From NCBI GenBank assembly GCA_963402885.1, contig OY727093.1:4278001-4342000 (forward strand): a stretch of 64,000 nucleotides of DNA. Direction: 5' to 3'. A program made the position numbers and the translations under genes. Within the stretch, counting starts at the first letter, position 1. The number at the start of each line of letters is the position of its first letter. The notes under the pieces are model-generated. The model ran no database searches and was not told where the DNA came from. It was given only the letters and a program-made list of their open reading frames with translations. This document shows positions 3,734 to 64,000 of this stretch, piece by piece. Source of the DNA: Antedon bifida. Its lineage: Eukaryota; Echinodermata; Crinoidea; Comatulida; Antedonidae.

Positions 3734-3735
3734 TC

Positions 3736-7786: not shown

Positions 7787-7855
7787 TATTTTTCTTTAAC
7801 TTTATGGTGAAATATACTATATACGTAATATGATATAGAGTATATCTCGTTTTAT

Positions 7856-10954: not shown

Positions 10955-11438
10955 TGTTAAAACCAATTTCTATATAATACATTTTTGCAGTTCAAAGCCA
11001 TTACAATTGTATAGAATAAAACAATAGAATTGAACAAAAAATAAAATCTATTTTTATGTGGCGGGTTTTTTTTCTCAATAAAATAGGCTCTCAACTTGAA
11101 AATAGTAGATAATGTCCATATAAATCTAAACAACCAACACATTTTATATGAAAATACTAAAAATTTACATATTCTTACCTGGTTAAACATAGGATATACA
11201 ACATTAGCACCATTCCAAATTAGGTTAGTAACTACCACCAATGTTTAAATTAAACTCAATGTCAACAGTTTTCGAGAGAAATATTAACAGATTAACACAT
11301 GCTTCAGTAAAACTATCAATCAATAAACAATGAAATAAAGATAAAACGATGCTAACAAAACAGATGTAGGCATATCATTCATTATAAATAAATACCGCAG
11401 ACTATTCTACTTCGACTCAACTGTGAATTACATTTGTC

Positions 11439-22271: not shown

Positions 22272-25200
22272 TTATAACTCAGCATCCACAGCAGAATTAT
22301 TGTCAGGTAAATTTTGAGGTAGACTATCACTCCCTGAAGGTACAGTAACACCGGACATCGATGTGTCCGGCACTGTGTCCGGTTGGAAGCCACCATTGGT
22401 TGCACCTTTGTTTGTACCATTGGTTGCACCATTGGTTGCACCATTAGGTGACTCAAAGAAGATTTCTGATGTATGTTGACTTGATCGTCTATTGAAAATA
22501 TTACAATATCGAATTTAATAATAATGATGTGGATGATGATGTTATGAAGGATAATTGGTTTTATGATCACTTGATTATTTGTTATAAATAGTATAGTATG
22601 ATTTCAGCGAATAGTATATTCATTGTTTGAAGGTTTGCATGGCGAAATCAAATGTTGATAATGTTTGCGGTACACAACATATTAGTCTGAAAAGAACTGT
22701 TGAGTTTTCAGAACTAATATACGTGGTGTATTGAAACTTTATATCAACATAGTATATTCATGTTGATGATGACGTTTCAATGGATTCAATACTGAATGGT
22801 AATGTTGATGATAAAGACTTATTATTTTTTAATTGTCTGAACAATGATAATAATGATTATGACTTTAAATAAAAGTTGTGTGTATTATTATTGTTTATAC
22901 AGTTGACGATGACTACAACAACGAAGTCGACAATGATTATTTTAAATTAAAAATCCACAATACATAATTTAAAAAACTACAACAAATCAAGCAAAATTGA
23001 ATAGATACTATTATTATTTTTGGGAAAAGGGGTAAGAGAACCTAACAAACTGCACATGATATCTCTCTTTTTTTTTAGCAAAAGCAAAACGTGATGCGGT
23101 GAAGATTACTCATGCATGAATGTTCAACTTAAACCTTCCTTTACAACTAAAATGTTGAACCGATCCCGATCATGTGTTCGCCGAATGTTCACATGTGGCC
23201 AAAAATCATTTGCATACATATTAGATATAAAATCAAATAATTTACTTGTATCGACCATAATCGGGTGGATTTCAATTTGTTTGTAGAAAACTATGTCTCT
23301 CGATCGCTTGATTGGCCTCCCGCTTACAGGCCCGTCAAGTAACATGAGATATAATGTCATCTTGAATATTAACTAATAAACTGGTGCTTGCAGAAAAAAA
23401 GCCAGCTGACTTGATATGAATGCATGCTTACATAACAATAATAATTCAAAAAACAGAATTCAACAACAATAAAACAAATGACAGATTGATAATGACAGAT
23501 GGAATTGATCAGGAAAATGACATATGCTAATGCAGTTAGGACTATCTATAATAATATATTGTGGAATGTGCTATATAAATGCATTAACATTATACAGTAG
23601 AACCCTTATGAAGGGGACACTTACATGACCCAACAATGTCTGAATAGGGGTTATTTGTAAATCATCATTTGTTTCAAAAGAAAATGTCCCCTGAATAAAG
23701 GTGTCCCTAAAAAGAGGTGTCCCTGAAGAGAGTTGTCCTTAAATAGGTGTCTCTTTAATAGGTGTCCCCTTAATAGAGGTGTACCTGAAGAGAGTTGTCC
23801 TTAAATAGGTGTCTCTTTAATAGGTGTCCCCTTAATAGAGGTGTACCATGAATAGGGGTGTCCTTAAATAGGTGTCTCTTTAATAGGTGTCCCCTTAATA
23901 GAGGTGTACCATGAATAGGGGTGTCCCTGAAGAGAGTTGTCCCTAAATAGGTGTCTCTTTAATAGGTGTCCCCTTAATAGAGGTGTACCATGAATAGGGG
24001 TGTCCTTAAATAGGTGTCTCTTTAATAGGTGTCCCCTTAATAGAGGTGTACCATGAATAGGGGTGTCCTTAAATAGGTGTCTCTTTAATAGGTGTCCCCT
24101 TAATAGAGGTGTACCATGAATAGGGGTGTCCTTAAATAGGTGTCTCTTTAATAGGTGTCCCCTTAATAGAGGTGTACCATGAATAGGGGTGTCCTTAAAT
24201 AGGTGTCTCTTTAATAGGTGTCCCCTTAATAGAGGTGTACCATGAATAGGGGTGTCTCTTTAATAGGTGTCTCTTTAATAGGTGTCTCTTTAATAGAGGT
24301 GTACCATGAATAGGGGTGTCTCTTTAATAGGTGTCTCTTTAATAGGTGTCTCTTTAATAGAGGTGTACCATGAATAGGGGTGTCCCTAAATAGGTGTCTC
24401 TTTAATAGGTGTCCCCTTAATAGAGGTGTACCATGAATAGGGGTGTCCTTAAATAGGTGTCTCTTTAATAGGTGTCCCCTTAATAGAGGTGTACCATGAA
24501 TAGGGGTGTCCTTAAATAGGTGTCTCTTTAATAGGTGTCCCCTTAATAGAGGTGTGCCATGAATAGGGGTGTCCCTTTAATAGGTGTCCCCTTAATAGAG
24601 GTGTGCCATGAATAGGGGTGTCCCTTTAATAGGTGTCCTCTTAATAGAGGTGTACCATGAATAGGGGTGTCCTTAAATAGGTGTCTCTTTAATAGGTGTC
24701 CCCTTAATAGAGGTGTGCCATGAATAGGGGTGTCCCTTTAATAGGTGTCCCCTTAATAGAGGTGTACCATGAATAGGGGTGTCCTTAAATAGGTGTCTCT
24801 TTAATAGGTGTCCCCTTAATAGAGGTGTGCCATGAATAGGGGTGTCCCTTTAATAGGTGTCCCCTTAATAGAGGTGTGCCATGAATAGGGGTGTCCCTTT
24901 AATAGGTGTCCCCTTAATAGAGGTGTGCCATGAATAGGGGTGTCCTTAAATAGGTGTCTCTTTAATAGGTGTCCCCTTAATAGAGGTGTACCATGAATAG
25001 GGGTGTCCTTAAATAGGTGTCTCTTTAATAGGTGTCCCCTTAATAGAGGTGTACCATGAATAGGGGTGTCTCTTTAATAGGTGTCTCTTTAATAGGTGTC
25101 TCTTTAATAGAGGTGTACCATGAATAGGGGTGTCTCTTTAATAGGTGTCTCTTTAATAGGTGTCTCTTTAATAGAGGTGTACCATGAATAGGGGTGTCCC

Positions 25201-26117
25201 TAAATAGGTGTCTCTTTAATAGGTGTCCCCTTAATAGAGGTGTGCCATGAATAGGGGTGTCCCTTTAATAGGTGTCCCCTTAATAGAGGTGTGCCATGAA
25301 TAGGGGTGTCCCTTTAATAGGTGTCCCCTTAATAGAGGTGTACCATGAATAGGGGTGTCCTTAAATAGGTGTCTCTTTAATAGGTGTCCCCTTAATAGAG
25401 GTGTGCCATGAATAGGGGTGTCCCTTTAATAGGTGTCCCCTTAATAGAGGTGTACCATGAATAGGGGTGTCCTTAAATAGGTGTCTCTTTAATAGGTGTC
25501 CCCTTAATAGAGGTGTGCCATGAATAGGGGTGTCCCTTTAATAGGTGTCCCCTTAATAGAGGTGTGCCATGAATAGGGGTGTCCCTTTAATAGGTGTCCC
25601 CTTAATAGAGGTGTGCCATGAATAGGGGTGTCCTTAAATAGGTGTCTCTTTAATAGGTGTCCCCTTAATAGAGGTGTGCCATGAATAGGGGTGTCCCTTT
25701 AATAGGTGTCCCCTTAATAGAGGTGTGCCATGAATAGGGGTGTCCCAAAGGAAGGGTCCTACTGTATTAAAAATAATAATTTGAAAAATATGTTTTCCTA
25801 CCTTTGTGGAGTATCACTAATATTACTATCTAAAAATATCAGAAAATAATGTGCTAAAATATCATACAACCAGAGATGTTGTTTGAAACAAGTATAACTG
25901 ATTTGCATCTCTGTATCTAGACAGATGCTAGTGTAAAACGTCATATGTGACACTGCATTTACCTTAACCATACAATAATTCCTAATATTTATTTCATTGT
26001 GGGATGTAAAACAACAAAAAACGTTTCAGGGTTTATAGAAATAATTCTAAGTACTTACTATCTGTTTCTTGCATTTCTTCAAGGTCAAACTTACTATTAT
26101 TCAAGTCCTTGTTTGAG
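22272..26117 (-). CDS. Receptor cytoplasmic tail exons
   Basis: Exons 26059-26117, 25802-25829 (28 nt) and 22272-22488 join in phase (2, 1, 2) to complete the tail, ending DAEL-TAA at 22272. The tail is acidic and Ser/Thr/Asn-rich, with FDLEEMQETD, a basic-serine site QRRSSQ and a short in-frame repeat NGATNGATNGTNKGATNGG. There is no tyrosine and no dileucine signal of the usual type. The 3.3-kb last intron contains the large minisatellite at 23593-25767. Without the 28-nt exon the last exon is read in another frame, so its inclusion would decide the C-terminus. Confidence 0.72.
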
Positions 26118-29100
26118 CTAAGTAAAAAAACAAAAAGCCTTTGTGTTAACGTTATTGTATATATAGCGGTTTTGTAGTATTTTTATATTAGGGAGCTTTT
26201 TATTCACGACAACCGAATGTTATGTTAATTTTATGTTAATTCATTGTGGATGCGGAGAACAACGTATTTCTTTTTGTGACAGTCATATCAATTGTGTTTT
26301 TCAAATCAAAAAGTATGGTCAAAAGTAATGATAAAGTTGACTGAATTATTACTGTATCACTTTTTTGACAGTAATAAGAAAGTTGACTGTATAATTACAG
26401 TACTGTATCACTTTTTTGACAGTAATAAGAGAGTTGACTGTATAATTACAGTACTGTATCACCTTTTTGACAGTAATCACAGTTGACTAATATTTCTGTA
26501 TCACCTTTTTTGACAGTAAGAACAGAGTTGTATGTATTATTTTCATATCACTTTTTCGACAGTAATTATAGAGAGTTGGCTGTATAATACAGTATCGTAC
26601 TGTATCACCATTTTGACATTAGTGACACAACTGACTGTATCACTTGTTGACAGTAATGTTGACTGTATCACTTATTTTAATGTACTGTATTACCTTTTTC
26701 TGTCTTTAATTACAACAAAGATCATCACGGCCAAACACACAGCAAGGAAACTGATCAGAGTGATAGCCCATGGTTGAAGACCATTTGCATCCACCGGTGT
26801 TGGATTCTCAACAGGCCCTATGATGTACTCAAACTCGCTACCATCTTTGCTCTCGGAGAGCATAGCCTGTACTTGTTCAGTTGTCATTGCGGCCACTTTG
26901 TTGTTGGTAGGGTCACTTATCCAAAATTTAACTTCCAAGTTTGAGTTTATCTGGACGAACGAGTAGTACTCAATATTATCTGATCTAAATATGAAATATT
27001 GAAAAAATGCATTTATTGTTTCTGAATAATATGACAGTACATAGATACAACATCAATCTCTCTAATAGATATGATTATAATATAACATACAAGATAAACA
27101 CTGTTTTTGTTGTCTTGGAGTAGAGTTGAAAAAGTCGTGAGTTAGAACCCTGGCACTCTTGGTCAAGATTGAACCCTGGCCCTATGAATTGGAAGGCACG
27201 CACGTTTACCACCAAGCTACAGCTCCACTAAAAATACTAATTACTAGACAAATTTAAGTAGCCTTGCAAATGTAATATAGAAAAAATAACAACATACTTG
27301 TAAACAGATTCACGAGGAGCTAAACAAGCTAGAATACTCTCAGAACAAAAGTCAGTTGCCTGTTCCGCCAAAGACTCGGCAAACGCCAATTGTTTCTCTT
27401 CATCAAACTGTAAGAACAAAAAAAGGTCACATAATATAAGGGCTGGTGAAGCACATCACACAATGACAGTTCTGTGCAACTTTGTTTTTCCTCTACACTC
27501 CTTCCTTCTTCCCCTTCAACTATTTGGTAGGTTGTAACATTGAAAATGAATAAACTATAATACAAAATTATTAATCAGTTATGAAAACTTCAAAACATAT
27601 CTTTTCAATCAAAACAAGAAAAAATAATACATTTTAAAAGATAAACCAGTACAAAAGTTTAAATTACCTTACAATTGATTCACATTCAATGGCGGCATAA
27701 TATGTTCCCTAACTTTGATTTTAAACAATTTCCATATATTTTAATTTTTTATTGACAGTAAATTTCTTCAGTAAAATAAATAGTACTTACAGACTCGTAT
27801 GATTCCTCAGTAAATGTTACCAAAGTACCTCCTACGTCTATTGGATCTACAAAAGTGGACATGACAGGTTCCTTGGTGGTAAAACCAGAAACTGAAAAAA
27901 AGAGAAAAAATATCTGTCATTGAACACAAAAAAAAAAGTAAAAACTGAATGTACTAAAAGCGGTTATATGATTAACTAGAGTCAGCTAGAAGACAGCATA
28001 GTGAAGGGAACTGGACATAAAATACTTTAGTAGTTAAATGAATAACATAAAATAAGATGTGATTAGTAGATAAAACAAAAGAAGCCCTTCTTTGGGACAC
28101 CTCTGTTAAAGGCTCCACTTTCCTGTGAACGAATATGGGGAAAATTATGTTAAATGTTTTGGCAATTTCAAACTGATTTTCCACTAGGCAAATTGGTTCG
28201 CGCAAATCAAAAGCGTTAGGTTATACGCATGTGTAGAGAGGGATTTGGAAGACTGAAACATGAATGCATGTAAGTTGGTGCTTTCAATTCGCGAGAACAT
28301 ATTCTCTTGGTAGAAAACAGGAAAACAGTGTTTTCATTAACACCACAGGCAACCCCTATTCAGGATACACCAATAATGGGACACCTAATATTGAGTTTAG
28401 GCTAGGTGTCTCCTTTATAGGGGTTCTAAAAAAAACTTTTTGTGAGAAATTACCTGTTGCATATTGTAAATCGAATCCACCTGCGGTTCCATACTCATCA
28501 CTGAAGAAGCGAATCCACATCTTATTGTTTTTTATGACGACAGGGATAGGAAGTGCTTTGCCAGTATAATATTGCTCAATGTTATTATCTGCTATGTCAC
28601 CAGGGCCCATTAAAAGAAAATCGTGCCTATAAACAACAAAAATATATTGGTTGATGGAAGATCAGATAAATTTTAAATGCCAATGAAAATACATTTCTTT
28701 GAACTTTTGGTATATTACTTGCTATCAGAGTTTTTGTGCTACATTTTACTTAATAATGACTCACCCATCTTCAAGATCAAAACTGTAAAACTCAACTTGG
28801 ATATAACCATCAGTATCTGGTATGGATATTACATATACACAGTCTTGATTGTCGGGATAGACTTTAGGATAGTTAGGAGAGGTGATTTTTCCGGTAGCCT
28901 CATTTCTTTCGGTGTCACCGCAAACACCAACTGAAACACAAATGAGATAATAATTTAAGTTAAGAATTAAAAGCTTTCTCTACCAATCTTTTCAAATAAG
29001 CAAACCTGAAACATTTAATCTTTTTTTTCTAAGACCAGTCAATCACATGATTACTCAATCGTTTAAATGTTTTATTACTTGCTATATATACATATAAACA

Positions 29101-32100
29101 CCTCAGGCAAAGAACATTAATTCTAAACCGCCCGGTAATATACTGAAATTTAATTAATTAATTTGAAACGATAAAGATGAGGAAATCTGTGAGAATAAGA
29201 AAAAGCCCAACCAAGACTCGAATTTGGACCGCCTGCTTGATATGCAGATGTCCTAACCATTAAATCATAGTATTGTTCAAACTCGATTGGATAGCGACTC
29301 TTTAACATTCTCGGCGTGGTACGGCGGAACAGCACTAGTCCCTCAGTTGTATGCACGCGCACCAGAAATCAAATTGATACACCCTATACATCTATTCAGT
29401 ATTTTTATTCACGAAGCGGGATCTCCGAAGAGATACTTTTTATATATATAAACACATCAGGCAAAGAACATTAATTCTAAACCGCCCGGTGATATACTTA
29501 AATTATTAACAATTATTATATTATTATTATATATATGCTCTGTGTAGCAGAAAATCTTACAATATACCATTTCTCTGGGATTTCTTGTGATTTTTTGGTT
29601 TGTGTATAAATAAAATCAGAATAACTGAAGTGTATTGCAGCGCTTTCATTAAATTGTCTATTTTATTAAGTTAACTAATGAATACATATTACAGTTTAGA
29701 AGTGGTATTTTTTAATACATAAATCAGCTGTGTTGATGATGGAGAAGGGCATAATTATAAACTAAAAATATAAATAATAATATTCACCTGATGGTGTTGT
29801 AACAGTTTCTATGTCCGATAACAATGGCCATTTACCATCTATCGTGTAAGTTGCAATCGTGAAAACATACTGCGTGCTTGCTGTTAGACCTTTCACCAGC
29901 AGCTCGTCAGTTTTTCCACCCGTAACGTTTATGTAGGTCTGACTAATAAGAGCAGAGTCGATGAATACTTTGTACCCGCTGACTTCGCAGCTCTGAGGTG
30001 AAGGAGTCCAGGTTAATCTGACATCATTGGGTGAAAGAGCTTCACCACTAAGCTTTGATGGATTCACGTCGCTGCGAGCTGATTGATAAAATTAGATAAA
30101 AATAGTAATACACTGGCCTCTATCTTTGTTAATAGCTATGTGAACAGATGTTAAGTGTAAGTATAAAGTTTAAAATAATTCTTTAAAATCTAAATGTGTC
30201 AAACTTCACCATGGAGCGAGTGAGCCTCAAACCCTTGCCGATGTTATGATACGTAATTACGGCCACTCACTCGCTTATACCACACTCATTCGATACATTG
30301 CCTACAGAGTTAATTTTAATAAAAACAATTTTTTTTAAATAATACAGACAGAAAATAACTTACTGTTATTGATAATTTCACAAATGTAGAACAAGTTCAT
30401 GTCACATTCCAAGTCGTTAAATCGTCCGTTATTTCGCAATTCCACACAGTCCTGGTTACCGATCTGGTCATTTGGTTGGTTCGTTTGCCAATTACTCTCA
30501 CCCCATGATCCAATGGAAGAACAATCAACCCATGTCCAATCATTCTCAACAGACTGGTCATGAAGACCTAAAACATTATCATATCTGTAATATTAGTACT
30601 ACTGTAGCAGTAGGCTGTTGACCAAATGTTTTTTGAAAATGTTGTAGATGTTAGTAGCACAGCAATATCGATTATTATTATAAAACTTTATTTCCATTAA
30701 GCTCTGTCTACACTGTCAAACTAGTTTGACAAAAACAGTGTGATGTACTTAAATATGGTAGTGATATGCCCAGTTCCAAATATGGCCACATCTTCACATA
30801 AACATTGATAGTAGACAGAGCTTTTGGACAAGAGCGCAACTCAAGTAATTTGGCTGTTACTAGCCTTCAAATAACTATGGATCAACCAAATTGTTGCTTG
30901 TGATTGATTAATTAATTTGCGTTGCGCCTAGTCGATGCGTTGGGTCAAAGTGGCAATCAAGCTTAAATCTGCAGGCCTTGTCTTTTAAGGCGAGCGAGTG
31001 CGATCACTAACACACTCCTAAAATGCCCTTGAGGAGTGCGATATACAACATGCTTAAATTTTGTAAACTTCTACACACCAACATACAAACAGCACACCTA
31101 CAGCACCCCAGAATGTATTGAGGAGTGCAATTTGTAGCACACCTATAATATTCAAAAGACAAGGCCCAATCTGACTTACCGACCCACCAGTCGCCTTGTG
31201 TTCTCTCCATCACGTTCTGCAGCTCAGCCTCTGTGTCAATGATAGCCAGATCACCACCTGATGTGGCTTGGCAGTCGGCTCTTGCATCGTGCCAACTCAC
31301 AGAATTGTTGACAAATTTATAGCATGCATAGTCTATGAGTTCCCATCCACTTGGGCAATGGCCTAAGTTCAAAATAAATAAAAAATTACAGTACTTATAT
31401 TTGAGAAAATGTTTCTTAATGACTAAACATGACCTTTACAGTACAGTATGTCAAAAAAGACATTGGGGCCCTTTGTTAAAAAAATAATTCTGCTCGAGAC
31501 ACTTGCTTAACTGTATTCAGTAGTAAAATCTTGTACAAGCTTTTGTTGATGGTCTTTTCCATGTTTTACTGTATTTATTCTGTTTTCATCTATCTTTTTC
31601 TTTGGATGAATAAATGAAATACAGACATTTTGAGAATGTAAGGTAAGTCATATTATTTGCCAAAAATAAAAACTACAAGATAGGGAGACTATTTAAAGTA
31701 TATCTTTAATTTTTGATATGTAAAGATGAAAACTATGTTCGTGCAAGTGTCAACATTACCTGAAAATGAAGGTATTTTAACAGTTGTAGACGTGTCAAAG
31801 GTCAACAGTCGAAGTTCACTGTACGCTGCAATCAAGAACGTATACTGTCTGTTTTCCTTAAGTCCACTAATTCTCACTGAATTTGTTGAAGCCCCAGGTA
31901 CAATGATGGTGGATTTTATGGGATCAGAGTATTCAATCTGGTAGCCGTCAACATCACAGATAACGTCAGATACTTGCCAGGTTAGCTCAACAGTGCTTGG
32001 GTTTATCACTGATCCTTTGAACATAGACGGATTGGCTGCATCAGGATCATATTCTGTCAGGGAAGGAAATGCCATAATATTTATAATAGTATTGATGCAT

Positions 32101-53100: not shown

Positions 53101-56100
53101 AATGTAGTAGGGCAGAGTATGGCATCTGGCCAAGAAAATGTTACTTACAAATCACTCGGTAGCTGATGTTAAAACCTTTAGCGTTGTTTGTACCATCACT
53201 TTCAAATCGTAGAGACAAACCATTCAAGTTACTATAAACATCATCAGGTAGACTGTTTCCCGAAAACTCCTAAAATAACATAAATGATTTCACAGGTAAG
53301 GTAAAAATCTATCTAATGGCCATTTCGGAATAATGTCTGAGACAAGGCTTTGACTTTACAGTGATAGGAAAATCAATATTTGTTTTTTTTAAGTAAATTA
53401 AAAGTAATACAATTTTCTCTTTGGACAAAAAGCCCAGCTTTTTCGTTGTACAGTATTTTAGTGTATTCTGTATACCAAATAAATAAAAAACATAATCTCA
53501 AAACACATCAATAATAATGATTGATATTGTCATTCATACCAAATATTCTCTGTTTGATCCATCGCTGACACCACCGACAAACAACCGATCATAATACGAT
53601 TCCGTCTCAAAATCATGGAAGGTAAGATGAACTCTGTAAAGTCCAGTGATTTGTATGATCCAGATGCAGTCGGCATCATTAGGATAAGAAAGAGGATAGC
53701 TTGGTGACGTTATTACGCCATGATCTTCAAATAAACTCTCAATTACACAACCATCTACAAAGAAAAAAGATATATAGATCTACAAATTGAAACAAGAAAA
53801 CTCATTCCACTGCACTTTGATGCAATTTTTCACTTCCAGGATATTAACCTTTAAAGTTATTTTTTCCTACAAAAGGGGCAAAAATCATCATGAGTTTGGC
53901 ATGCATCACTGTCCTTAAGCTCTGTCTGCACTATCAAACTAGGTTGAAAAAAAAGTATATACAGTATATAAATATGGTAGTAATATGTCATCATGTCCAT
54001 ATATGGGCACATCGCATTTTGTTGTCACATAAAGTTTGATAGTGTCGACAAGGCTTTAAACAGTATAATCTAAAGCTCTGTCTCAACTCTTACAGTCGTT
54101 TGTCATGACAAAGCTTACTTTGTAAATATTTTGTAATTTGTTTTTCTGTCTAATTTTTTTCTTTACTGTCTACTTTCACATTAAGATATAAAATATATAT
54201 AGATGTAATATAGAGATATAATAAAGTTCAGTTTGGTTCAGTACTGTATATTGAATCCATTTATTTTGTAATGTTATTAAAAATCATGCTCACCATCAGA
54301 GACTTGAAACTTGAACCCTGACACGCTGTCTCTGATTGTAGCAGCAACCCACAGAGTGCTATCAGAAATGAGGAACGATCCAACACTGTTGCTCCCTGTC
54401 AGAACTCTTTGCCGTGATGCCACATTAGCAGGGTTCGAGCCGGTTCCAAACTCAAGCGTTTCATACAGGTTTTCTATCAAAGAAAAATATAAATACATGC
54501 AATTGTTATGATAACCAATCGAAATATAGCCAGGAACAATATATATTACATAACTACTTTGAAGTAGCTTTACGTCAGGGAGCTACAGTAAATTGGTTAA
54601 TGTTTGCCCTTACGTCAGAGTAGGGCAACAATTTGACCAATTAAGGAGACATGATTCTCCCATCATGTGTTGACCGCTTATGCCAATCTGAAACAGGGAA
54701 CTACAGTTAATTGGTTAATGTTTGCCCTTACATCCTTTAGTTGCTGTGCATGTGGAAAGTTTTTTGATGCAGCATTTCTTCATTTACATGTTACACGCCT
54801 CACATATGATAAATATGTGACACTGTAACACAGACCTTGCCAATGATACTGAACGAATTGCTGATTAATATATTACTATACAGTAGAACACCCCCTTTGG
54901 GACACTACTATTCAGGAGGTTTTTCATGAAACATATGAGGGGCATTATATTTTTTAACACTACAACCAAGCCTATTCAGGGGACACCCCTATTAAGGGGA
55001 CACTTCTTTGGACTCAAATGCGTCCCCTTAATAGGAGACTTACTATTAATACAATTATATTATTAATTATATTTATATATATATATATATAATTATAATT
55101 ATACAATACCTAATACCAAATCTGTGAAACCCAACTGTATATGTTTGCCACGTGGTGCCTTTATAATCCACTGACAGTAGCCTTTGTCAGTTGAAGCATA
55201 ACTAACGTCATATTTCTCTCCAGATGTCAATGTATACTCATGGATACAATCTAGAAAAAAGAAAATTTAGGATATTTTGACAAAAGAGATTGAATTAAAA
55301 ACTCTGTGACAAATTTCACACAACCCTGAACATTTTCGGAAAATGATTTTAACATCAAATTAAATATTCAATTCTTCATGTTTTGTCTCAGAAACGATTT
55401 GCGCTAGAGTTTTCTTCACAAAAGTATGTAAGTAAAGTAAGTGCAGATACCAAATGAGTTGGCAGTGACCATACTGCCATAATCATCTGTCAATGACAGC
55501 CTACGGCTCTTCTGAAGAACCAGGCTTTCAACTTCAATGTAAGTTCTTCGTGTCAGATTTTCTTTAATTATTTGACTTCCTAATTCGTAGCCAAATTTGT
55601 GCAAAGCCAAAGCATTAAAGGACAACTTTACCAAGAACCATATTTTGACAACGTATTAGGGATGCACATATGATTTCAGAACAATTGCAAGATTTACAAT
55701 ATCGCCGCATGCAGTCGCCTTAGAACCGTCGCCGTAAATTGTGGTTAGCGAAATCTACCTCATGAGTTGAATTTATGGTTCTCGGTAAAGTTGCCTTTAA
55801 CTCTCTACATGATAATTTTACTCTCAACTACCTCTATTTTTCTATTTTATTCTCCCAAGATTCACCGCCATAACTGTACAGTATGCATGCATCTTAACTG
55901 TAAAATATTGACTTACCAATTGCAGGGGACACAGTTAACATAAATCCTTTTTTCGAACCAGAAGAATCCGCATTAAATTGAATCCAGGCATTCTCAGAAT
56001 CGAGGACAATGTCTTCTGGTAGATTTGAACCTGTGAAGATGGCGTACCTTGATGCCATGTTGGATGGATCATTACCGGTTCCAATCACCAACGTATCATA

Positions 56101-59100
56101 ACTGTAAATGGTAATTAAACAGAAGTATTATCATTATTGGCAGTAGAATCACTAATAAGGGGACACCTTCGGGCCCCTAAAAAGTGTCCCTTTAATAGGG
56201 ATGTTCACTGAATTGTTAAAGCATCAATAAAAGTTCACAGGAAAATGGCCCCATAATAGGCCCCATCATGATGATGATGAAATGGCCAGACGGCCAATGT
56301 TATCGATCTATAGTTTCCCCTATGTTACCTTTTTTTTTTTATTAAATAAGCACTTTCTTAACATATTACACAGTCAAATCCCTATCCATATTTATAAATA
56401 ATGAGAGGCGTTATCTTAAAAATAAACTTGTAGTAATTATAACTTGAGTTTTTAGTATTTTTATTCAACTTCACAGTTCTACTATAATTAAGTAAGATTA
56501 AGTGGAAAAAGTTGCAGGTCTGGAGCATTAGCAGTGAGTCAAGTCAACTAACCTACAATAGGGACTTTATGAAACACGACGGGAAGCCATAGGACGGTGC
56601 TTATGAATAATTTATGCATGAGCTTTAAAAAAGTGACCGGAGCTTAGCGTGAAATTCCTTCTTAACTTTTTGAGAACGATAAAGTTGCCATTTTCCCGTT
56701 TACGGAGAACGACTAGAAATAAAACTCTAAACAATATTTGAACTTCTAATTTAATTGTTTAATGAAAAAACATTTTTACTGAGTTAAAATGGCTGTGTTA
56801 AAAGCAGCGTTTAAATGCGAGGCCATATAGCTAGGCCTATGCTATCACCAGAGCCAAGCGATTTAGAAGGGGAGGGATCGAAGAGATATACTACTGGTCG
56901 TCGTCTTCGCGCAATCGTGCGTAACTAATAAAACAACTATGTTGACTCTAGCGAACATAGGATATTTGTCGTCCTCTCCCTAACCGTCGTGTTTCGTAAA
57001 GTCCCTAATACTTACAGGTACTCAACATCAAAATCAGAGAAGTCTATTTTAAGTCTCTGGTCAGGATTTCCAATCAACAACCAAGTGTATACAATATCAT
57101 TGGGATATTGATTAGGATACTCAGGACTTTTTATTACAACTGTCAGACAAAAAAAGAATTGTATAAAAAAGTATATCAGGAAGAATAATTCAGGATTTAT
57201 AAAACAGTAAATGAATACTACAAATAAACTATCCAAGTGTTTACAGTGCGTGCCGTCATGTGTCGCAGCAATTTGATTTTAATAAGTGATATTCTTGCCT
57301 TTTAAATATTAAATATTAACTAGACATGAAACTCGTCACTTTGACGAGTTAGTTATCCGCACCACGACAAACGCCACGTGCACGTCATACGTTGGAATAT
57401 TGCACACAGATAAAGATTATGGCATTATGACAAGAACTGAAGAATATGACATGCTGTTAGTGCTGAATTTTGTGTCATATAGTATATACATGCAAACAGT
57501 ATAAGCTGTATACATATTACATACAGTGTAGAATAGGTGAAATTACGGGACCCGCCATTTATTCCAATTTTTAACATGGCGACGGTATCAAAATGAAACA
57601 CTTAGATAGCAATTTCAGAAGGAAATTATCTCAGGAACAACATATTAACGTGTAGAAGAAATTTGAATACGTAAAATATAGATGCGCACCCTTTTAAATG
57701 TGATGAACTATTACGCAAAATATGAAAATACGACTTTTTTTATTCAACTGGCCATATGATGACGTCACAACATCCGATTGGCAAAATTTTTACATGAATT
57801 CGTATCTACAATCCAATAGCTTCCAGAAAACGTTTTAATCGTGATTATCACATTTTATTCTTACGAGCTATTACAGATTAAAATTTACTGTAAAGATGAA
57901 ATTAATGACCCACGTAATTAAAATTTTTAGGCATGATGACGTCATAAAAATTAAAATATTTTTATCTCATGCTAAAGAAAGTTGATTGACCTACACAATA
58001 TATAAATGTAGGAGAAAAAGGAATACAGATAAGCGCGATGCGCTCCATTGAATGTGATGAGCAATAACGAAAGAGACAAAAATCCTATATTTTACATTCG
58101 TGTGGCCATACGATGACGTCACAATGTTTTTTTAGCCTTATTGATGCATGATCCGATATCTACAACTCATCAACTTCTAGATTTTGTAATAAAAATAAAC
58201 GGTTAACGGTTTACTTTAGAAACTATGACTGTTTAAAAAAAGACATAATTTTGACGATTTTTTAAGCTTTTTCATAAAAAACGCGCACGAATTGTCTAAT
58301 TCAACGTGTTCGTATGGCGTTATTTAAACTGGAAAAGGTCTAAATTGTTTTCAAAATCACTGGGAAAGGCTTGAAAAATATAATTCAAGAGAAAAAAATA
58401 TGTTTTTAACGCTATGTGCGCACCGCGCGCATAAAAAATTGCGCGCCCGTGGGAATTTTTGACATGCTCAAAATGACAAGAAACGCGTAAAAAGTTGATT
58501 AGAAATTAATTTTGCGCATTTTGAAATTTTAAATGCGCGTGCGCGCGTAACTTCTTGTCAAACATGCCATTTTTAATCCGTAGAAAGTTTGCCCCTGATA
58601 TGATTTAAATTTTGTCAAAGTGTCAATACTAAATGACTTTTGGTTTTTAATCTATGATCAATCATTGAAATTCATAAAATTGCGCATAAGTCACGTTGCG
58701 CAACTATGACGTCATTCAAAAATAGGAGGTGCACAACTTCACGTAAATGCCCATATGTTGTCAAAGTTATGAAATGTTATGTTTACACATTTTAGAGGAA
58801 CACGACTCACAAAAAGGAAGGAAGGAAAGAAGAATAATACAGAAAAAAAATATTGATCTCATACAATTACAAGGAGTTATCCGCTTGGTATACCAAGCGG
58901 ATAACTAATAAGGTAAAAGGTAAATGTGAGTTATATGAACATAGATAAATGAGCCGTGTGGAGATCGTAATGCCTCAGCATTGGTTGGGTGGTCATTTTC
59001 CCCTTAACCTGTCTATAATTTTGAAGCAGGTGCTCATTTACATGTTGGTACTGGTGTTCTTATCGGAAATATAACCTGGGTCTTCCTATATGATAGTAAA

Positions 59101-62100
59101 TTGTCCTAACCACTCTGTAGAATTTCAATTCAGTTTATAAAAATAAAATGATGTATATGAAAATATTATTTTATTGATTATTTCATTTTGGCTGTCAAGG
59201 GTGAAGCAAATTAACTGAATTCACACTTGTATATTGCAACTGTTTTTAAAGAAAACTCGGTTAAACCTCTATGATATCACATTTTAAACAGACGAAAAAA
59301 TGATAGTAAATTGAACTTTGCCCCTAATTTTTTACACCACCAAGGACAAATTGCACTATAGACTGGCTATTAACCAATCAGATAGCATGAAAATGTATTA
59401 TTTGAAATTAATCCTACCTCCATTTGCTGGAACATTGTATGTATAATTAAGTGTTGTGGTTGGAATCGCATCAGATGGCTTGTTATGAACTTCTGGAAAA
59501 AAGAAGAAATTTGACAGTTAGAAATGTGTCAACCATGATAGCTCCAGCACAATTAACAAGTCCCTAGCCATGTGTAGATTGAGGGTTCAAACACCACCCC
59601 CCCTCCCCCCCACCCCTTTTTTTGCTTGAAGCTTTTTTCTTCTAGAGACAAGCAGCGGAAGTATGGGTTAAACATGCCAAATCCCTGTAAAAATGTGGGG
59701 GTCTTTCAATCCATGACACTTCACAAGGGTTTTAGCAAACACAAATATTTCTTGCAACCACCTAACTTTAATTGTAGAGCTCTACGGAAGTTGTGTCATG
59801 TTCCTCCATCCTTAAGCTCTGTCTACACTATCAAACTCTATGTGACCAAAACGTTTGATATGCTCATATATGGACATGATGATGTTATAGCACTAGCATA
59901 TTTGGGCATATCACTACCATATTTGGGCATCACTTCCATATTTGGGCAAATCACAAACTATTTTGATAGTGTAGACAGAGCTAAGACCTTCTATGAATTT
60001 AGGCCATATACTTTTTTTGAACAAAATGAAAATGAACATAAATATAAATATTTCAACCTACTGTTCGTAGTCGAAGTTTGATACACTTGTATAGTCAATG
60101 CAAACCCACGTCCACTGCTAGAGTAGTCACTAACAAACGTAATAGTAACTTTGGAATCTTGTGTTCTTAACTGATCGTATACCACTTGATTTCCAGTAAA
60201 TTGCAAACTCTCACCATTTTCGCGAGTGATATACATGGCATCATACATGTTTTCCATGTCAATATCCAGTATATCAATCACAATTTGACCAGAGGAAGCG
60301 GAGATTTCATAAACAGATTTCATTAGATTTGGATAATTATTTGGATAGTTCGAGGAAGTCAAGCGTAACAATGAGCCGGTCTTAAGTGTTTCTGTTATTA
60401 CATTTTGTTTACGATCTGGAACTGTAAAGGAAATAATAGATAACATATTATTAATCATAACACACCTAAGAACATTCTTGCCATTTGATTGCTTCGATAT
60501 CATATCAGGTGGCATTAATAATTTCAGTCTATTCAATGGAAATATTCTGCTAAATTATTCTATTCAACGGCCAGATTGTTGTACAAATGTTGAGGTTGTT
60601 GCAACTCAATACAGTAGGCCAATAATAAACCAGTCTATAGTAAGTCGTGGATTAGCCTTTAGCATCTGATTTTTGTTTATAGTATTTAATAGTGTATTTC
60701 TATTCAATTACCAACCTCCTGGACTGTCCTCTATGTGCATTCGAAACCCAGATCCACTTGTAGATCCCATTGAGTAGAAGGTAACATAAACCATGCTAGC
60801 ACTGGTCACATAATTTTTAGGTAGATTTTTGCCATTAAGGCGCTGTAAAAACAAAAACATATGAATATTTACAATTAGTACAATATGCATTAAAAAAAAA
60901 AGAGAAAAGGTTCAAGCTAACACTGAACAGGCCAATAAATAAAAACATGACAAAACAAACCACAAAAAATGCAGGTGAAAACGCTAGAGATTGTTGAACC
61001 AGGACTCTTAACCACCAATAATGGTAATGATGCAACAAAAACGACATTTGTTTACCAAATATTTATCTGGATAGCTGTCATCCTCAATCTGTAGATAGTC
61101 ATCACTACTAATGTCAAAGGCATCAAAGACAAATTCAAGTCCACTGGTGTCATCTGATGAATGTAGCATATATGTGCAGTTAACCTGTTCAGGGTAAACA
61201 TCGGGCCAAAATAAAGATGAAATATTTGCTGGGCTACGGAAGTGTAGAAGCTCATCACAGTCAGTTTTGACTACAAAAGAAATAATTACATAACATAATA
61301 ATAATAATACATAACACAAACACACAAATTGTTGCATTGCTGTTGCAGTGAGTAGCCTTAATTAATGAATGGATGGACCTTTCACAGCATTTTTGAAATA
61401 AATGGATAACTTTAACATAGCCTAGACTAGGCCTAGTAGTCCCTAGTAGGTCTAGGCCTAGTTAGTATTAGGCCCTAGGTAGTATTCACCATTCTTAGTA
61501 GGGCCTGGCCCTGGCTAGCTAGGCCCTAATAGGCTCATCCTGGTTGACACATCTACTACAGACAGCAGCATTAATAACTATGATAGTATCCTTTAAATCA
61601 ATTCTTAATCTTACTTTATATAGCCTAACAACGTCAAATATTAAATTAGCAGATTTATAAAGATATGATGAAAAGAGCGGTCAAATTAAAACCGAAAAAC
61701 AATCATGCTCTGCTAAAAAAAAAATCTATTTTTAAAGAGGGCGCAATAACGAATAGTAAAAATAATATTCGGCAAAATTTGATTAACATTAAGTACATAG
61801 GAGGCCTCAGAGTGGTCGACCACCAAACCAAGTCAGGAAATATTAAAAACATTAACTGGATTGTTTAAATACATTAAAAATACATGTAATTAAAATTTTT
61901 TTCTTGTTAATGCCATTTTTACTAGAAAACTTACATGAAAAACTGTAATTTAAAGAAAAAAATAGTCACATATTGTCAATTGTCAAGGGTTTTGGTTAAA
62001 TCCCATTATTTGGTCTTTTTTTAGTCTTTTGTCTATGGAAATAAATAGCTTAATTAAAATGGCCTATTTCAAATGTTATTAATCTGGATCCCCATTGTTA

Positions 62101-63449
62101 AAATACATTATAAGCAACAATACATTTTTCTTAAATTTGGTAAGCTTCAGACTGCTGACCATGGATGAAGCTCTGTCTACACTAGTCAAAATTTATGTGA
62201 CAAAAAAATGTGATCATTTGCCCATAATGATATATTTGGGCATATCACTACCATATTTGGCCACATCACACTTTTTTGTCAATCTAGTTTGATAGTGTAG
62301 ACAGAGCTTAAATGGACTGACATTTAAGACTAGTTTTTAAATAGTATAATATTTAGACAAAAATAGCGATTGTTATTTCTTTAATGATAGGAATCTTTTA
62401 AAAGGTCTGTACGTACCTGAAGTATTGTACGATAACGAGAATCCTTCTGCATTGATAGATTTATCCGTGATAAATCGAAACCAAACTTCTCGGCCGTTTA
62501 GTTCCAAAGTATCTGGGATATTGCTGGTAGAATCATCTCCTGTTAGATACTCGGCATTTTCAATATCACTAGAATCGCTACCAATACCGTAATACAAGAT
62601 GTCCAGCTTATTTTCCAGTTGAAAATCGTTAATTGTGATTGTATACTGGTACGCTAACGGAACGTCAATGATGTATGTGCAATCTAGGTTATTGTCGTAA
62701 CCACCAGCCGGATTATTTGAAATATCACCTGTAATATCACGGTAGGTTCCACCGCATGACGATTGCCCTGAAAGAAAAAGTCATAATACTGTATATGAAG
62801 ACAGTACGCAATCACTTTTTCTCCTTACAGATATCCGGTCCTGCTGTAGGCTAGTAATGAAGAATTCTGATCTAGAGAATTACTTTGTCAAAATCCTGCT
62901 CGAAATCACCGAAGAGACAATTAATGCTATAAAGGCCTTATAATAAATATTAATACAAAATTACACAATAATTGGGCTTTCGGTCGATTTTGCTAAGTGC
63001 AACATAACATCTAAACCACTAACATGAATATAATTATGCATAGAACTATCGCAACACCTGTTAAACCAACTTTTTTTAAAAAGAAATAACATTAATGCAT
63101 TATTTATTTTGCATATTGGATCACCGGTAAAAAGGTGATAGATTTAGTTTTTTTAAATTTCATATTAGTAAAAAAAAATGCCTTAGTCTATATAATCAAG
63201 TAGTGCAACATTGTATTCAATCTTATCTTCCTTAGATCATGGAGTTACTTCTACATGCTTAGAAAGCGTGCTAGATATTTGCGCCTCTTAGGCTTAACAC
63301 AAGTTAGTAAAAATAAATTAAAACCAAGACGTTCGAAGAAAAAAAAGATTATAAAACTACATACCGTTACTAATGGAAACATTAATAAAGTTTAGAATAA
63401 CTCCTATTACCAGTAACCTGTAACCCAACATTCTCGTCGGTTCCTTCAT
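22272..63449 (-). CDS. Giant type I membrane receptor with 12 CUB, 9 C-type lectin and 9 FN3 domains
   Basis: Fifty-eight exons on the minus strand, all with usable splice borders, join into one open frame of 3,768 residues. Exon coordinates are given in the sub-entries. Order: signal peptide, CUB1-6, (lectin-FN3) x4, CUB7-11, (lectin-FN3) x5, CUB12, a stalk of about 140 residues, one helix near residues 3642-3662, and a tail of about 105 residues. Every domain enters and leaves in phase 1. CUB domains have at most the first cysteine pair; each lectin has seven cysteines and each FN3 one. The ectodomain is built for protein and sugar recognition at the cell surface. The tail has no tyrosine, so no ITIM, ITAM or NPxY motif. 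I do not recognise a named homologue, and a recognition, adhesion or endocytic role is inference. The total exon length is exactly divisible by three, which supports the model. Confidence 0.85.
23593..25767. repeat. 63-bp higher-order minisatellite inside a small TIR element
   Basis: The region is built from variants of a 14-15-bp monomer GTGTCCCTTTAATAG. The commonest combination is a 63-bp unit of four monomers (GTGTCCTTAAATAG, GTGTCTCTTTAATAG, GTGTCCCCTTAATAG, then GTGTACCATGAATAG with short spacers); other blocks repeat two- or three-monomer units. The array is bounded by TACAGTAGAACCCTT on the left and its near-perfect inverse AAGGGTCCTACTGTA on the right. It lies in the last intron of the receptor gene. 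There are roughly 30 higher-order units; exact numbers were not counted. Confidence 0.92.
26291..26690. repeat. About 50-60-bp imperfect tandem repeat next to a splice donor
   Basis: Eight or so diverged units contain CTGTATCACTTTTTTGACAG followed by TAAT and GTTGACTGTATAAT. The array abuts the 5' splice site of the transmembrane exon (26693, minus strand), whose surroundings (CTGTATTACCTTTTTCTGTC) resemble the repeat. Confidence 0.8.
26694..28930 (-). CDS. Receptor CUB12, membrane-proximal stalk and transmembrane helix
   Basis: Exons: CUB12 28765-28930 + 28454-28626 (phase 2 inside); stalk 27791-27891 and 27298-27407; last stalk part plus helix 26694-26984. CUB12 has one cysteine pair (GVCGD, DCVYV). 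The stalk runs FTEESYESFDEEKQLAFAES, a two-cysteine stretch DFCSESILAC, then VQINSNLEVKFWISD; alternating helices and strands right outside the membrane resemble a SEA-type domain, but I see no GSxxx cleavage motif. The helix is PWAITLISFLAVCLAVMIFV followed by basic KDRK, giving a type I orientation. Confidence 0.78.
27161..27227 (-). repeat. tRNA-like SINE remnant
   Basis: The minus strand reads like a decayed tRNA: TAGCTTGGTGGTAAACGTGC as A box, TTCCAA in the anticodon loop position (Gly-TCC-like), and GGGTTCAATC as B box. It sits in an intron of the receptor gene and has no clean acceptor stem. Confidence 0.4.
28335..28432. mobile_element. Fragment of the TACAGTAGAACCCC element family
   Basis: Words such as CAACCCCTATTCAGGATACA, AATGGGACACCTAAT and TTTATAGGGGTTCTA match the monomers of the minisatellite-bearing element at 23593-25767, here without the expansion. 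Similar short pieces lie at about 34295-34361, 54893-55045 and 56141-56214, all in introns of the receptor gene. Confidence 0.5.
29084..29511 (-). repeat. tRNA-like unit flanked by 70-bp direct repeats
   Basis: The sequence containing TCAGGCAAAGAACATTAATT and CTAAACCGCCCGGT occurs at 29084-29152 and again at 29441-29511. Between them the minus strand has a tRNA-like segment at about 29205-29275 (TTTAATGGTTAGGACATCTG, then AATTCGAGTC). It is probably a SINE that was duplicated or lies between two partial copies of another repeat. Confidence 0.55.
29788..39482 (-). CDS. Receptor lectin-FN3 block B: five CTL+FN3 pairs
   Basis: Exons: CTL5 39294-39482 + 38599-38802, FN3-5 37943-38085 + 37271-37427; CTL6 36624-36818 + 36030-36233, FN3-6 35642-35938; CTL7 35249-35440 + 34583-34786, FN3-7 33917-34059 + 33674-33827; CTL8 33240-33440 + 32533-32742, FN3-8 31760-32053; CTL9 31180-31362 + 30364-30567, FN3-9 29788-30078. 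Calcium-site motifs are better kept than in block A: QPD in CTL5, 6 and 7, EPD in CTL8, QPN plus FND in CTL9. QPD is the galactose-type signature in vertebrate lectins. FN3-5 and FN3-7 alone are split by a phase-0 intron at the same place. All lectins have the WVDC/WLDC cysteine and all FN3 domains one cysteine (CDV or CEV before xGY). Confidence 0.83.
30697..30823. mobile_element. MITE of the CTCTGTCTACACTATCAAAC family
   Basis: The left end TTAAGCTCTGTCTACACTGT and the right end GTAGACAGAGCTTTT are inverted repeats around the shared core with TTTGACAAAAACAGTGTGAT. It lies in the intron between the two exons of CTL9. Confidence 0.75.
31010..31145. repeat. Dispersed repeat, partner of about 40470-40585
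   Basis: Both places share CTTCTACACACCAA, ATACAAACAGCACACCT and CAATTTGTAGC in the same order. Each lies just downstream of a receptor exon in an intron. The class of element is unknown. Confidence 0.5.
34922..35083. mobile_element. MITE of the CTCTGTCTACACTATCAAAC family
   Basis: The copy has TAAAGCTCTGTCTAAC at the left and AGTGTAGACAGAACTTA at the right, with the core words CCAAATATGGTA, CCATATATGGGCACATCACA and CACATAAAGTTTGA. It lies in the intron that splits CTL7. Confidence 0.75.
39068..39223. mobile_element. MITE of the CTCTGTCTACACTATCAAAC family
   Basis: The copy begins TTAAGCTCTGTCTACACTAT and ends AGTAGACAGAGGTTTA, with the usual core. It lies in the intron that splits CTL5, about 70 bp upstream (plus sense) of the first exon's donor. 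Confidence 0.78.
39801..44653 (-). CDS. Receptor CUB block B: CUB7 to CUB11
   Basis: Exons: CUB7 44430-44653 + 43961-44090 (phase 0); CUB8 43174-43515 (single); CUB9 42436-42649 + 41879-42063 (phase 2); CUB10 41272-41430 + 40598-40789 (phase 1); CUB11 40006-40223 + 39801-39921 (phase 0). All five keep the first cysteine pair. Closest matches in block A follow the same order: SSNYPNQYPN and SDYSITGRGF in CUB8 as in CUB3, FDVEY and NAWIQF in CUB9 as in CUB4, SPSYPMDYPNNADCIWIIQ in CUB11 as in CUB6. The CUB9 second exon ends at the donor GTTAGT. Confidence 0.82.
45191..52796 (-). CDS. Receptor lectin-FN3 block A: four CTL+FN3 pairs
   Basis: Exons: CTL1 52599-52796 + 52010-52204, FN3-1 51420-51719; CTL2 50686-50880 + 50185-50373, FN3-2 49439-49729; CTL3 48755-48943 + 48051-48254, FN3-3 47229-47528; CTL4 46482-46664 + 45770-45973, FN3-4 45191-45475. 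Each lectin starts with CP(x)n-CY(K/L), has TWxxAR..C in helix 1 and ends YIC/YVC, i.e. the long-form fold. All carry an extra cysteine after the W-x-W strand (WVDC, WSDC, WGDC; TC in CTL2). CTL3 keeps QPG...WND, while CTL1, CTL2 and CTL4 look poor at the calcium site. Each FN3 has a single cysteine in the motif CDVxGY. CTL2 is the most divergent. Confidence 0.83.
45601..45730. mobile_element. MITE of the CTCTGTCTACACTATCAAAC family
   Basis: The copy begins TTAAAGCTCTGCCAACACTA and ends AGTGCAGACAGAGCTTTA. The internal core is inverted relative to several other copies (CCATATTTGGGCACATCACA). It lies between CTL4 and FN3-4. Confidence 0.75.
46843..46979. mobile_element. MITE of the CTCTGTCTACACTATCAAAC family
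   Basis: The copy begins CTAAAGATCTGTCTACACTA and ends TAATGTAGACATTAAG. The core CCCAAATATGGTAGTG is kept. It lies between FN3-3 and CTL4. Confidence 0.7.
47560..47720. mobile_element. Partial relative of the MITE at 19338-19691
   Basis: The left end TTAAAGATGCATTGTCCCCC and the following ATGAAAAATGAAGATT match the element in the protease intron. The right end is degenerate (CAATCTCTTTAA). It lies between FN3-3 and CTL3 exons. Confidence 0.55.
50423..50489. repeat. Inverted repeat (hairpin) of 16 bp
   Basis: GGTGAAAGATGAAATG at 50423-50438 is exactly mirrored by CATTTCATCTTTCACC at 50474-50489. The spacer is 35 bp. It is probably a small MITE or its core. Confidence 0.6.
50991..51090. repeat. 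GC-rich hairpin followed by GGTC repeats
   Basis: AGTCGCG-TGGA-CGCGACT forms a 7-bp stem, followed by CTATAGTTCACTATGACG and a run of GGTC units. In this AT-rich intron it stands out and looks like the end of a dispersed element of unknown class. Confidence 0.5.
53149..61270 (-). CDS. Receptor CUB block A: CUB2 to CUB6
   Basis: Exons: CUB2 61056-61270 + 60716-60842 (phase-0 internal intron); CUB3 60062-60421 (single exon); Thr-rich linker 59418-59492; CUB4 57016-57139 + 55917-56101 (phase 2); CUB5 55110-55250 + 54294-54473 (phase 1); CUB6 53540-53754 + 53149-53269 (phase 0). CUB2, CUB5 and CUB6 keep only the first CUB cysteine pair; CUB3 and CUB4 have no cysteine at all, although their cores are otherwise normal (SSNYPNNYPN, FDVEYLYDTLVIG, GFMLTV). 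The CUB2 donor GTTGGT is weak but is the only one that keeps phase. The intron order 0 / none / 2 / 1 / 0 is repeated in CUB7-11. Confidence 0.8.
53915..54058. mobile_element. MITE of the CTCTGTCTACACTATCAAAC family
   Basis: The copy begins TTAAGCTCTGTCTGCACTAT and ends AGTGTCGACAAGGCTTTA, like the right end of the copy at 18655-18770. It lies between CUB6 and CUB5 exons. Confidence 0.75.
57322..58910. mobile_element. Unclassified 1.6-kb element bounded by hairpins
   Basis: The left border has the hairpin AACTCGTCA-CTT-TGACGAGTT followed by AGTTATCCGC. The right border ends with a perfect 30-bp palindrome at 58877-58906 whose arm also reads GTTATCCGCTTGG. The interior has many TGACGTCA words and GCGCG-rich stretches unlike its surroundings, and no long open frame. 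It fills most of the intron between the Thr-rich linker exon and CUB4. Confidence 0.5.
59812..59985. mobile_element. MITE of the CTCTGTCTACACTATCAAAC family
   Basis: The copy has clean ends TTAAGCTCTGTCTACACTAT and ATAGTGTAGACAGAGCTAAG. The internal CATATTTGGGCA word is tandemly repeated, so this copy is longer than the others. It lies between CUB3 and the linker exon, about 75 bp from the CUB3 donor. Confidence 0.78.
61420..61545. repeat. TAGGCC/CTAG-rich low-complexity block
   Basis: The block is made of TAGGCCTAG, CCCTAGTAGG and AGGCCCTA words in no fixed period. It lies in the intron between CUB1 and CUB2. TAGGCCTA is frequent across the window, but this is its densest cluster. Confidence 0.55.
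62168..62310. mobile_element. MITE of the CTCTGTCTACACTATCAAAC family
   Basis: The copy begins AAGCTCTGTCTACACTAGTC and ends TGATAGTGTAGACAGAGCTT. The core TTGGGCATATCACTACCATA is present. It lies about 105 bp downstream of the CUB1 exon on the coding strand. Confidence 0.77.
62417..63449 (-). CDS. Receptor exons 1-2: signal peptide and CUB1
   Basis: Exon 63365-63449 starts at ATG 63449 (MKEPTRMLGYRLLVIGVILN), giving a hydrophobic signal peptide; a second in-frame Met is at codon 7. It ends in phase 1 at GTATGT. Exon 62417-62767 holds a complete CUB1 (about residues 30-145) in a single exon. It has one cysteine pair (SSCGG, LDCTY) and the closing GFSLSY strand. No upstream coding exon is visible before the window end, so this is taken as the N-terminus; an unseen 5' exon cannot be excluded. 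Confidence 0.75.
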
Positions 63450-64000
63450 TGCCAAACGTTCCGAGAGTGCGTGTGGACAAGATCACGAGAAGGTTACAAG
63501 TACAGCTAATAGGCGTAGGTCTACACATTGTTCGAAACACTTATAGAACTAAGTCAATCTTATCTAATTATTATCTTTTAAAAAAAACATCCCAACCCAA
63601 TGGTATCTTACTCATTATGATAACATGTTGATTTGAGCAAGCATTATCGATTAGCTATACTCCCAATGTAAATAACTAAACCTCAGTCATCCCAATTTTG
63701 AACTCCCGCAAATATTTTTACTTGGACTTCGAACAAACTTTGTGAACATGCTATTAAATTAGCAGAATCATCATTAGTTGTGATGACAGTGTCTGGTACC
63801 AGCCCTAAAAGCACACCTTGTATTGATGGTTTCAATTAAAAAACATTTAGTTAAGATAAATTCCAACCTAGATTATAACTAGTGAGATGATAATGGCATG
63901 GCGTATGTACAAAAGGTAAATGCAGTTAGTTGATTTATCAGACAGTTATCTAAAAGGCGCGTTACATAAAACGAACTCAACCTTCAATTTCATAACGGTT

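Follow-up and report, generated by a model that had tools for sequence, protein, structure and literature searches.

What does the minus strand of this 64,000-nucleotide stretch of DNA (hereafter the window) encode between positions 63449 and 22272: one very large gene or several adjacent ones, and does the product belong to a family that already has a name? Using a splice-aware gene search that started from domain seeds and included two choices made by hand, we obtained a minus-strand gene of 58 exons running from 63449 to 22272, whose coding sequence of 11,307 nt consists of 3,768 codons and a stop codon. Our own search thus returned the same number of exons, the same number of residues and the same outer coordinates as the initial annotation, and the one continuous open frame described there is present in our final model, which has consistent phases and no internal stop (in 3,768 random codons of the minus strand, about 237 stops are expected). 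The explanation that we favor, and to which we assign as a whole a probability of roughly 60%, is that this is a single intact metazoan gene that encodes a giant type I membrane protein with 30 recognized domains.

Gene model and domain order

As seeds for the model we used 54 domain-like open segments, picked by eye from the three-frame translation of the minus strand from 64 to 20 kb. Exon borders were set by a small splice-aware dynamic program that combined codon scores with splice-site scores (the splice matrices being retrained on the model's own exons), with exon penalties of −17 and −12 and a check for stops at split codons. (A lenient exon penalty of −6 gave 58 exons in a first pass and then 166, the translation containing 12 stop letters if the final one is counted, and was set aside as over-prediction.) Two parts of the model reflect guided choices. 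Exon 1 was seeded with the coordinate of the initial annotation in mind (the unseeded run gave 63411-63528), and the inner borders of CTLD9 (exons 48 and 49) were corrected by hand to agree with those of the other CTLDs. Three small exons, 6, 56 and 57 (75, 59 and 28 nt, respectively), have no Pfam domain of their own and are tentative because they are present at a penalty of −12 but missing at −17 unless seeded; with these three left out the frame is still open, with 55 exons and 3,732 residues (penalty −17, before the CTLD9 correction).

Note that GT-AG borders are imposed by the method and therefore are not evidence for the gene model. In the final model the 57 introns have a median length of 462 bp (range 84-3313), and reading through from the preceding exon meets a stop in every one of them. 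Phase 1 accounts for 44 introns, phase 0 for seven and phase 2 for six, and all borders between recognized domains carry phase-1 introns. The scores of 56 of 57 donors reach at least the 90th percentile of GT sites on the strand, and 54 of 57 acceptors reach the 90th percentile too (the lowest, at 56.8, is that of exon 38, the weakest acceptor of the model); there is some circularity in these percentiles, given that a nearly identical model served to train the matrices. The uniform cysteine counts described below serve as a partly independent check of the model, since a wrong chain of exons would be expected to scatter them.

When the whole protein was scanned against Pfam in five pieces (E up to 1), CUB was matched in three stretches of six, five and one domains (E = 9.7e-89, 2.3e-92 and 3.1e-21), Lectin_C in stretches of four and five domains (E = 1.4e-66 and 1.5e-84) and fn3 likewise in stretches of four and five (E = 1.3e-26 and 2.6e-54), in agreement with the 12 CUB, nine lectin and nine FN3 domains that had been counted before. 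The order is signal peptide, CUB1-6, four CTLD-FN3 pairs, CUB7-11, five CTLD-FN3 pairs, CUB12, a juxtamembrane domain, a membrane helix and a tail, all on the minus strand. The signal-peptide exon (exon 1, 63365-63449) comprises 28 codons plus one base, ends in a phase 1 donor and was recognized by eye from a basic start followed by a hydrophobic core.

Several repeats lie within the introns of this gene. A two-kilobase minisatellite occupies 23699-25746 in the last intron, and its unit is open in all three minus frames; we considered this region (about 23.7-25.7 kb, with minus frames of up to 131 residues) as a coding tail and rejected it because the frame shifts repeatedly and the repeat sits in the last intron. 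A short unit resembling the minisatellite recurs in another intron, at 54971-55003. Short tandem repeats whose units span about 19-21 bases, one with CCATATTTGGGCAT, are found in introns at 59887-59954 and 39111-39159 and are possibly part of a dispersed element.

Elsewhere in the window, 354-6588 holds, mostly on the minus strand, a cluster of related GPCR genes, or fragments of such genes, of the rhodopsin type, with a 370-residue open frame at 357-1466, other frames that are split over two frames or partial (5537-6588 and 2690-3177) and a plus-strand piece at 3410-3772 that looks GPCR-like by eye. Pfam 7tm_1 matched all four of the frames tested from this cluster, and a search of viral contigs with a neighboring GPCR frame gave two stretches that matched the pattern, neither of which was confirmed. 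From about 9715 to 21539 on the plus strand there is, by eye, a gene with several split CUBs followed by a trypsin-type serine protease. Four of its frames were compared with Pfam, and one matched CUB (17143-17463), two matched trypsin (20036-20542 and 21273-21539) and one had no match (15578-15787). A tRNA-Val gene (anticodon AAC) was found at 7715-7788 on the plus strand by both ARAGORN and Rfam, and Rfam (gathering threshold) and tRNA scans of the window reported nothing beyond it.

CUB arrays and CTLD-FN3 units

CUB1 is encoded by exon 2 (62417-62767). Block A starts with CUB2 (exons 3-4, 60716-61270; inner intron of phase 0), which is followed by CUB3 (the single exon 5, 60062-60421), CUB4 (exons 6-8, 55917-59492; inner introns of phase 1, after tentative exon 6, and phase 2), CUB5 (exons 9-10, 54294-55250; phase 1) and CUB6 (exons 11-12, 53149-53754; phase 0). 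Block B starts with CUB7 (exons 25-26, 43961-44653; phase 0), followed by CUB8 (the single exon 27, 43174-43515), CUB9 (exons 28-29, 41879-42649; phase 2), CUB10 (exons 30-31, 40598-41430; phase 1) and CUB11 (exons 32-33, 39801-40223; phase 0), and CUB12 (exons 51-52, 28454-28930) stands by itself near the membrane. Each of the 12 was assigned from the gene model and Pfam, together with the cysteine count for CUB3 and CUB4 and a match to solved structures, the best of which is cubilin, for CUB11. Ten of the CUBs have two cysteines, both of which are lost from CUB3 and CUB4; going by the cysteine counts, the cysteines of the second CUB disulfide are present in none of the 12. Calcium-binding CUBs are marked by a triad of E, D and D, and this triad is found in nine of the 12 domains (CUB1, 3, 4, 6 and 8-12) and is missing from CUB2, 5 and 7.

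Comparison of the two arrays suggests that CUB2-6 and CUB7-11 probably arose when a block of five or more CUBs was duplicated colinearly inside the gene. The colinear pairing gave the highest summed identity of 120 pairings (175.0, the next being 167.8), with identities of 29, 36, 38, 26 and 45% for CUB2/7, 3/8, 4/9, 5/10 and 6/11, respectively. Moreover, the inner introns read phase 0, absent, phase 2, phase 1 and phase 0 in both blocks, so that all five pairs agree, and full agreement of this kind arises in just two of the 120 pairings. (This comparison leaves out the extra phase-1 intron of CUB4 that follows tentative exon 6.) Two of the pairs are weak ones, as CUB5 shares more identity with CUB8 (29%) than with CUB10 (26%) and CUB7 is 30% identical to both CUB6 and CUB11 and 29% identical to CUB2. 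A tree of the CUBs grouped CUB4 with CUB9 (84/84), CUB6 with CUB7 and CUB11 (82/89), and CUB3 with CUB5, CUB8 and CUB10 (80/79); none of its nine inner branches reaches full support, and long branches were flagged, CUB5 with CUB10 among them.

The first four CTLD-FN3 pairs consist of CTLD1 (exons 13-14, 52010-52796) and FN3 domain 1 (exon 15, 51420-51719), CTLD2 (exons 16-17, 50185-50880) and FN3 domain 2 (exon 18, 49439-49729), CTLD3 (exons 19-20, 48051-48943) and FN3 domain 3 (exon 21, 47229-47528), and CTLD4 (exons 22-23, 45770-46664) and FN3 domain 4 (exon 24, 45191-45475). The other five consist of CTLD5 (exons 34-35, 38599-39482) and FN3 domain 5 (exons 36-37, 37271-38085), CTLD6 (exons 38-39, 36030-36818, with the weak acceptor of exon 38) and FN3 domain 6 (exon 40, 35642-35938), CTLD7 (exons 41-42, 34583-35440) and FN3 domain 7 (exons 43-44, 33674-34059), CTLD8 (exons 45-46, 32533-33440) and FN3 domain 8 (exon 47, 31760-32053), and CTLD9 (exons 48-49, 30364-31362, with the hand-corrected inner borders) and FN3 domain 9 (exon 50, 29788-30078). 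The gene model and Pfam define all of these domains, complemented by the cysteine count for CTLD1 and the FN3 domains, by sugar-site residues for CTLD2-8 and by a match to solved structures for CTLD9. A tree of the nine units left all six of its inner branches open.

Site 2 of mannose-binding protein has five residues, namely those of EPN or QPD, an E before C, and WND. Counted by eye against this site, the complete canonical set is present in none of the nine CTLDs, and the label "lectin" in the initial annotation was accordingly too strong. CTLD3, 8 and 9 retain four of the five residues by eye, CTLD2 has none in place, and CTLD5, 6 and 7 have the galactose-type QPD without the glutamate before the fifth cysteine. 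Because the sugar sites are incomplete in all nine CTLDs, glycan binding may be the wrong reading; as judged from these residues, sugar binding by some of the CTLDs is possible.

Long-form CTLDs have six cysteines. Each of the nine CTLDs of this protein has seven, and each of the nine FN3 domains has one. In an alignment, the seventh CTLD cysteine lies within a "W.W.DC" stretch; eight CTLDs share one column for it, and that of the divergent CTLD2 is shifted by one column. The single cysteine of the FN3 domains occupies the same column in all nine, in the context "C[DEY][VI]". The odd cysteine is also kept at the ends of the arrays, in CTLD1, CTLD5, FN3 domain 4 and FN3 domain 9. Pairing inside each CTLD-FN3 unit leaves no cysteine over, which makes a within-unit disulfide the simplest reading, whereas pairing of each CTLD with the preceding FN3 domain would strand the four domains at the array ends with free cysteines. 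We predict that a disulfide probably joins the extra CTLD cysteine to the lone FN3 cysteine in each of the nine pairs, and the fact that CTLD2 keeps its odd cysteine despite having lost its sugar site suggests that such a bridge is structural. The counts alone (nine and nine) would also permit two protein copies to bond to each other, CTLD to CTLD and FN3 to FN3, as a covalent homodimer; however, 18 inter-chain bridges per dimer seem unlikely, and, going by the same counts, pairing within the units uses up every cysteine, array ends included, so that we leave the homodimer a small chance. Building on the within-unit bridge, it is conceivable that CTLD and FN3 together form a composite recognition module of a new sort, disulfide-locked, inherited as a unit and present here in nine copies, in an unnamed family of block-duplicated giant receptors, a tentative proposal that we hold with the odds somewhat against it.

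Gene number, membrane anchor and tail

At the borders of the arrays the gaps are 352 bp (CUB6 to CTLD1), 537 bp (FN3 domain 4 to CUB7), 318 bp (CUB11 to CTLD5) and 857 bp (FN3 domain 9 to CUB12). These are ordinary intron lengths here, with scarcely enough space for one gene to end and the next to begin, which argues for one gene; this is by far the simplest reading and much the likeliest, in line with the earlier view that several adjacent genes are improbable at this locus. Two tandem receptor genes, one with CUB1-6 and four CTLD-FN3 pairs and the other with CUB7-12, five pairs and the membrane anchor, might be suspected from the same domain order repeated in both blocks and from a short, M-led hydrophobic stretch at 45050-45142, within the gap between FN3 domain 4 and CUB7. 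Yet only 537 bp separate these two domains, the donor and acceptor scores at this gap (4.3 and 7.7) are ordinary for the model, and frame and phase are continuous across it. Moreover, when translation is continued beyond FN3 domain 4 a stop appears after about 17 residues; by eye, this extension contains a very short hydrophobic stretch only, with no membrane helix after block A. We regard a division into two genes as highly improbable.

The gene model closes with exons 53-55 (26694-27891), which encode a juxtamembrane domain of about 140 residues and then a single membrane helix that starts near residue 3640, followed by the tentative small cytoplasmic exons 56-57 (25802-26117) and by exon 58 (22272-22488) with the end of the cytoplasmic tail and the stop codon. 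The membrane helix was called from hydrophobicity and from the fold of exon 55, for which AlphaFold, given this exon alone, returned a model of low confidence overall (mean pLDDT 62.5); three strands and a short helix, themselves poorly supported, are followed in it by a long helix with a pLDDT of 79-91. Beyond the basic stop-transfer residues the tail counts 101 residues, of which tentative exons 56-57 contribute about 29. One long hydrophobic helix, the basic residues after it and a frame that continues past it bear out the single membrane helix and short tail of the initial annotation. The same features speak against a reading in which the gene mainly makes a secreted or matrix form, the membrane form is minor and the protein is a structural component of matrix or mucus; long tandem CUB or FN3 arrays occur in matrix proteins too, and the small uncertain exons leave space for alternative ends, but we consider this reading unlikely. 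With respect to the membrane form, the tail has no tyrosine and hence no ITAM and no NPxY motif. The RGD motif is absent from the protein, a scan for KGD, LDV and DGEA gave two matches, both in the second CUB array, and 38 N-glycosylation motifs fall within the first 3,640 residues.

The juxtamembrane domain had no match in Pfam. (A SEA-type identity, an idea based on shape only, was sought and not reached.) Its placement is like that of the neck of collectrin, and its alignment to human collectrin slightly beats shuffled sequences (p = 0.016 local and 0.012 global), as might be the case if the protein were a receptor for endocytosis or transport whose collectrin-like neck docks a transporter. 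The same shuffle test against ACE2, however, gave p = 0.39 (local) and 0.22 (global), and the domain had no match in the PDB either. Pfam Collectrin (PF16959) was not reported at E up to 10 (HMMER filters drop most weak matches), whereas a control collectrin was matched by it with 172.8 bits. We judge a transporter-docking neck to be unlikely, no more than a lead.

Known families and proposed function

Within the open-access literature, Pfam and the PDB we found no named family with this domain order, and some phylum may quite well have a family that is already known but still without a name. A CTLD exon found no match among viral contigs, and one FN3 exon gave 102 stretches that matched the pattern in bacterial and archaeal genomes, none of which was confirmed. 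Every module of the protein is common, and we place it among the domain-shuffled giant receptors.

Among known proteins, those of the CSMD type are very large type I membrane proteins (about 3,500 residues) in which CUBs alternate with sushi domains ahead of a short tail. The protein described here is likewise a giant type I protein with many CUBs, a second module and a short tail, but its second module is the CTLD-FN3 pair, and no sushi match was obtained with Pfam over the whole protein (E up to 1). Cubilin has EGF repeats and then a CUB array, and lacks a membrane helix of its own, CTLDs and FN3 domains; the long CUB array is shared, whereas here Pfam gave no EGF match and a membrane helix is present. 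Members of the mannose receptor family (LY75, PLA2R, MRC1 and MRC2) carry a cysteine-rich domain and FN2 before 8-10 CTLDs and have neither CUB nor FN3 domains. That family (group VI) resembles our protein in being type I receptors with tandem long-form CTLDs, and it is among the best solved matches of the CTLD9-FN3 unit, the best being LY75. Unlike in that family, Pfam reported no cysteine-rich domain or FN2 here, and the LY75 domains aligned with the CTLD9 unit lack the extra CTLD cysteine. Attractin is a type I protein with single copies of CUB and CTLD along with kelch, PSI and EGF-type modules; like our protein, it is a membrane protein of type I that combines CUB with CTLD, but here both occur in many copies and Pfam gave no kelch, PSI or EGF-type module. 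The attractin family is listed as group XI of the CTLD proteins (PMC514892). A table line in the same source offers a precedent for the joining of CTLD and FN3, the Fugu protein CFN3 ("Protein with CTLD and FN3 domains"), which by that table description resembles our protein in pairing the two; the word CUB is absent from the main text of the source (PMC514892). Lancelet APEC proteins, described as having a fucolectin domain, two C-type lectin domains, CUB and APEC, are similar to ours in that CTLDs adjoin CUB in an invertebrate protein and differ in having a single CUB, APEC and fucolectin, with no FN3 named in that description (PMC12373286).

Starting from what the DNA gives directly, that is, gene anatomy, domains, cysteine counts, calcium-site residues and the continuity of the frame, we propose that exon shuffling with phase-1 exons would have assembled the ectodomain of 30 recognized domains, and that a block of at least five CUBs would then have been duplicated inside the gene. 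The CUB arrays may bind protein ligands in a calcium-dependent manner, since extensive CUB arrays that retain calcium residues are suggestive of protein ligands, cubilin being an example. The nine CTLD-FN3 pairs, each locked by its predicted disulfide, would add many weak contacts to glycans or proteins. Since the tail has neither tyrosine nor a recognized signaling motif, we infer that the protein does not signal on its own and that it most likely serves in adhesion or ligand capture, or signals via a partner. A calcium-dependent adhesion or ligand-capture receptor built by exon shuffling is the function that these sequence features make most likely, and the sequence fits immune, epithelial and reproductive roles alike.

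Our analysis adds to the initial annotation the block duplication, the odd-cysteine pattern and the juxtamembrane domain. The gene illustrates how exon shuffling may produce a 30-domain receptor from modules bordered by phase-1 introns, with a second round of building that probably duplicated a block of five or more CUBs as a whole. The strict cysteine pattern predicts a covalent two-domain recognition unit. Should the family turn out to be widespread in one phylum, it would bring a further class of surface receptor to that group's recognition candidates.
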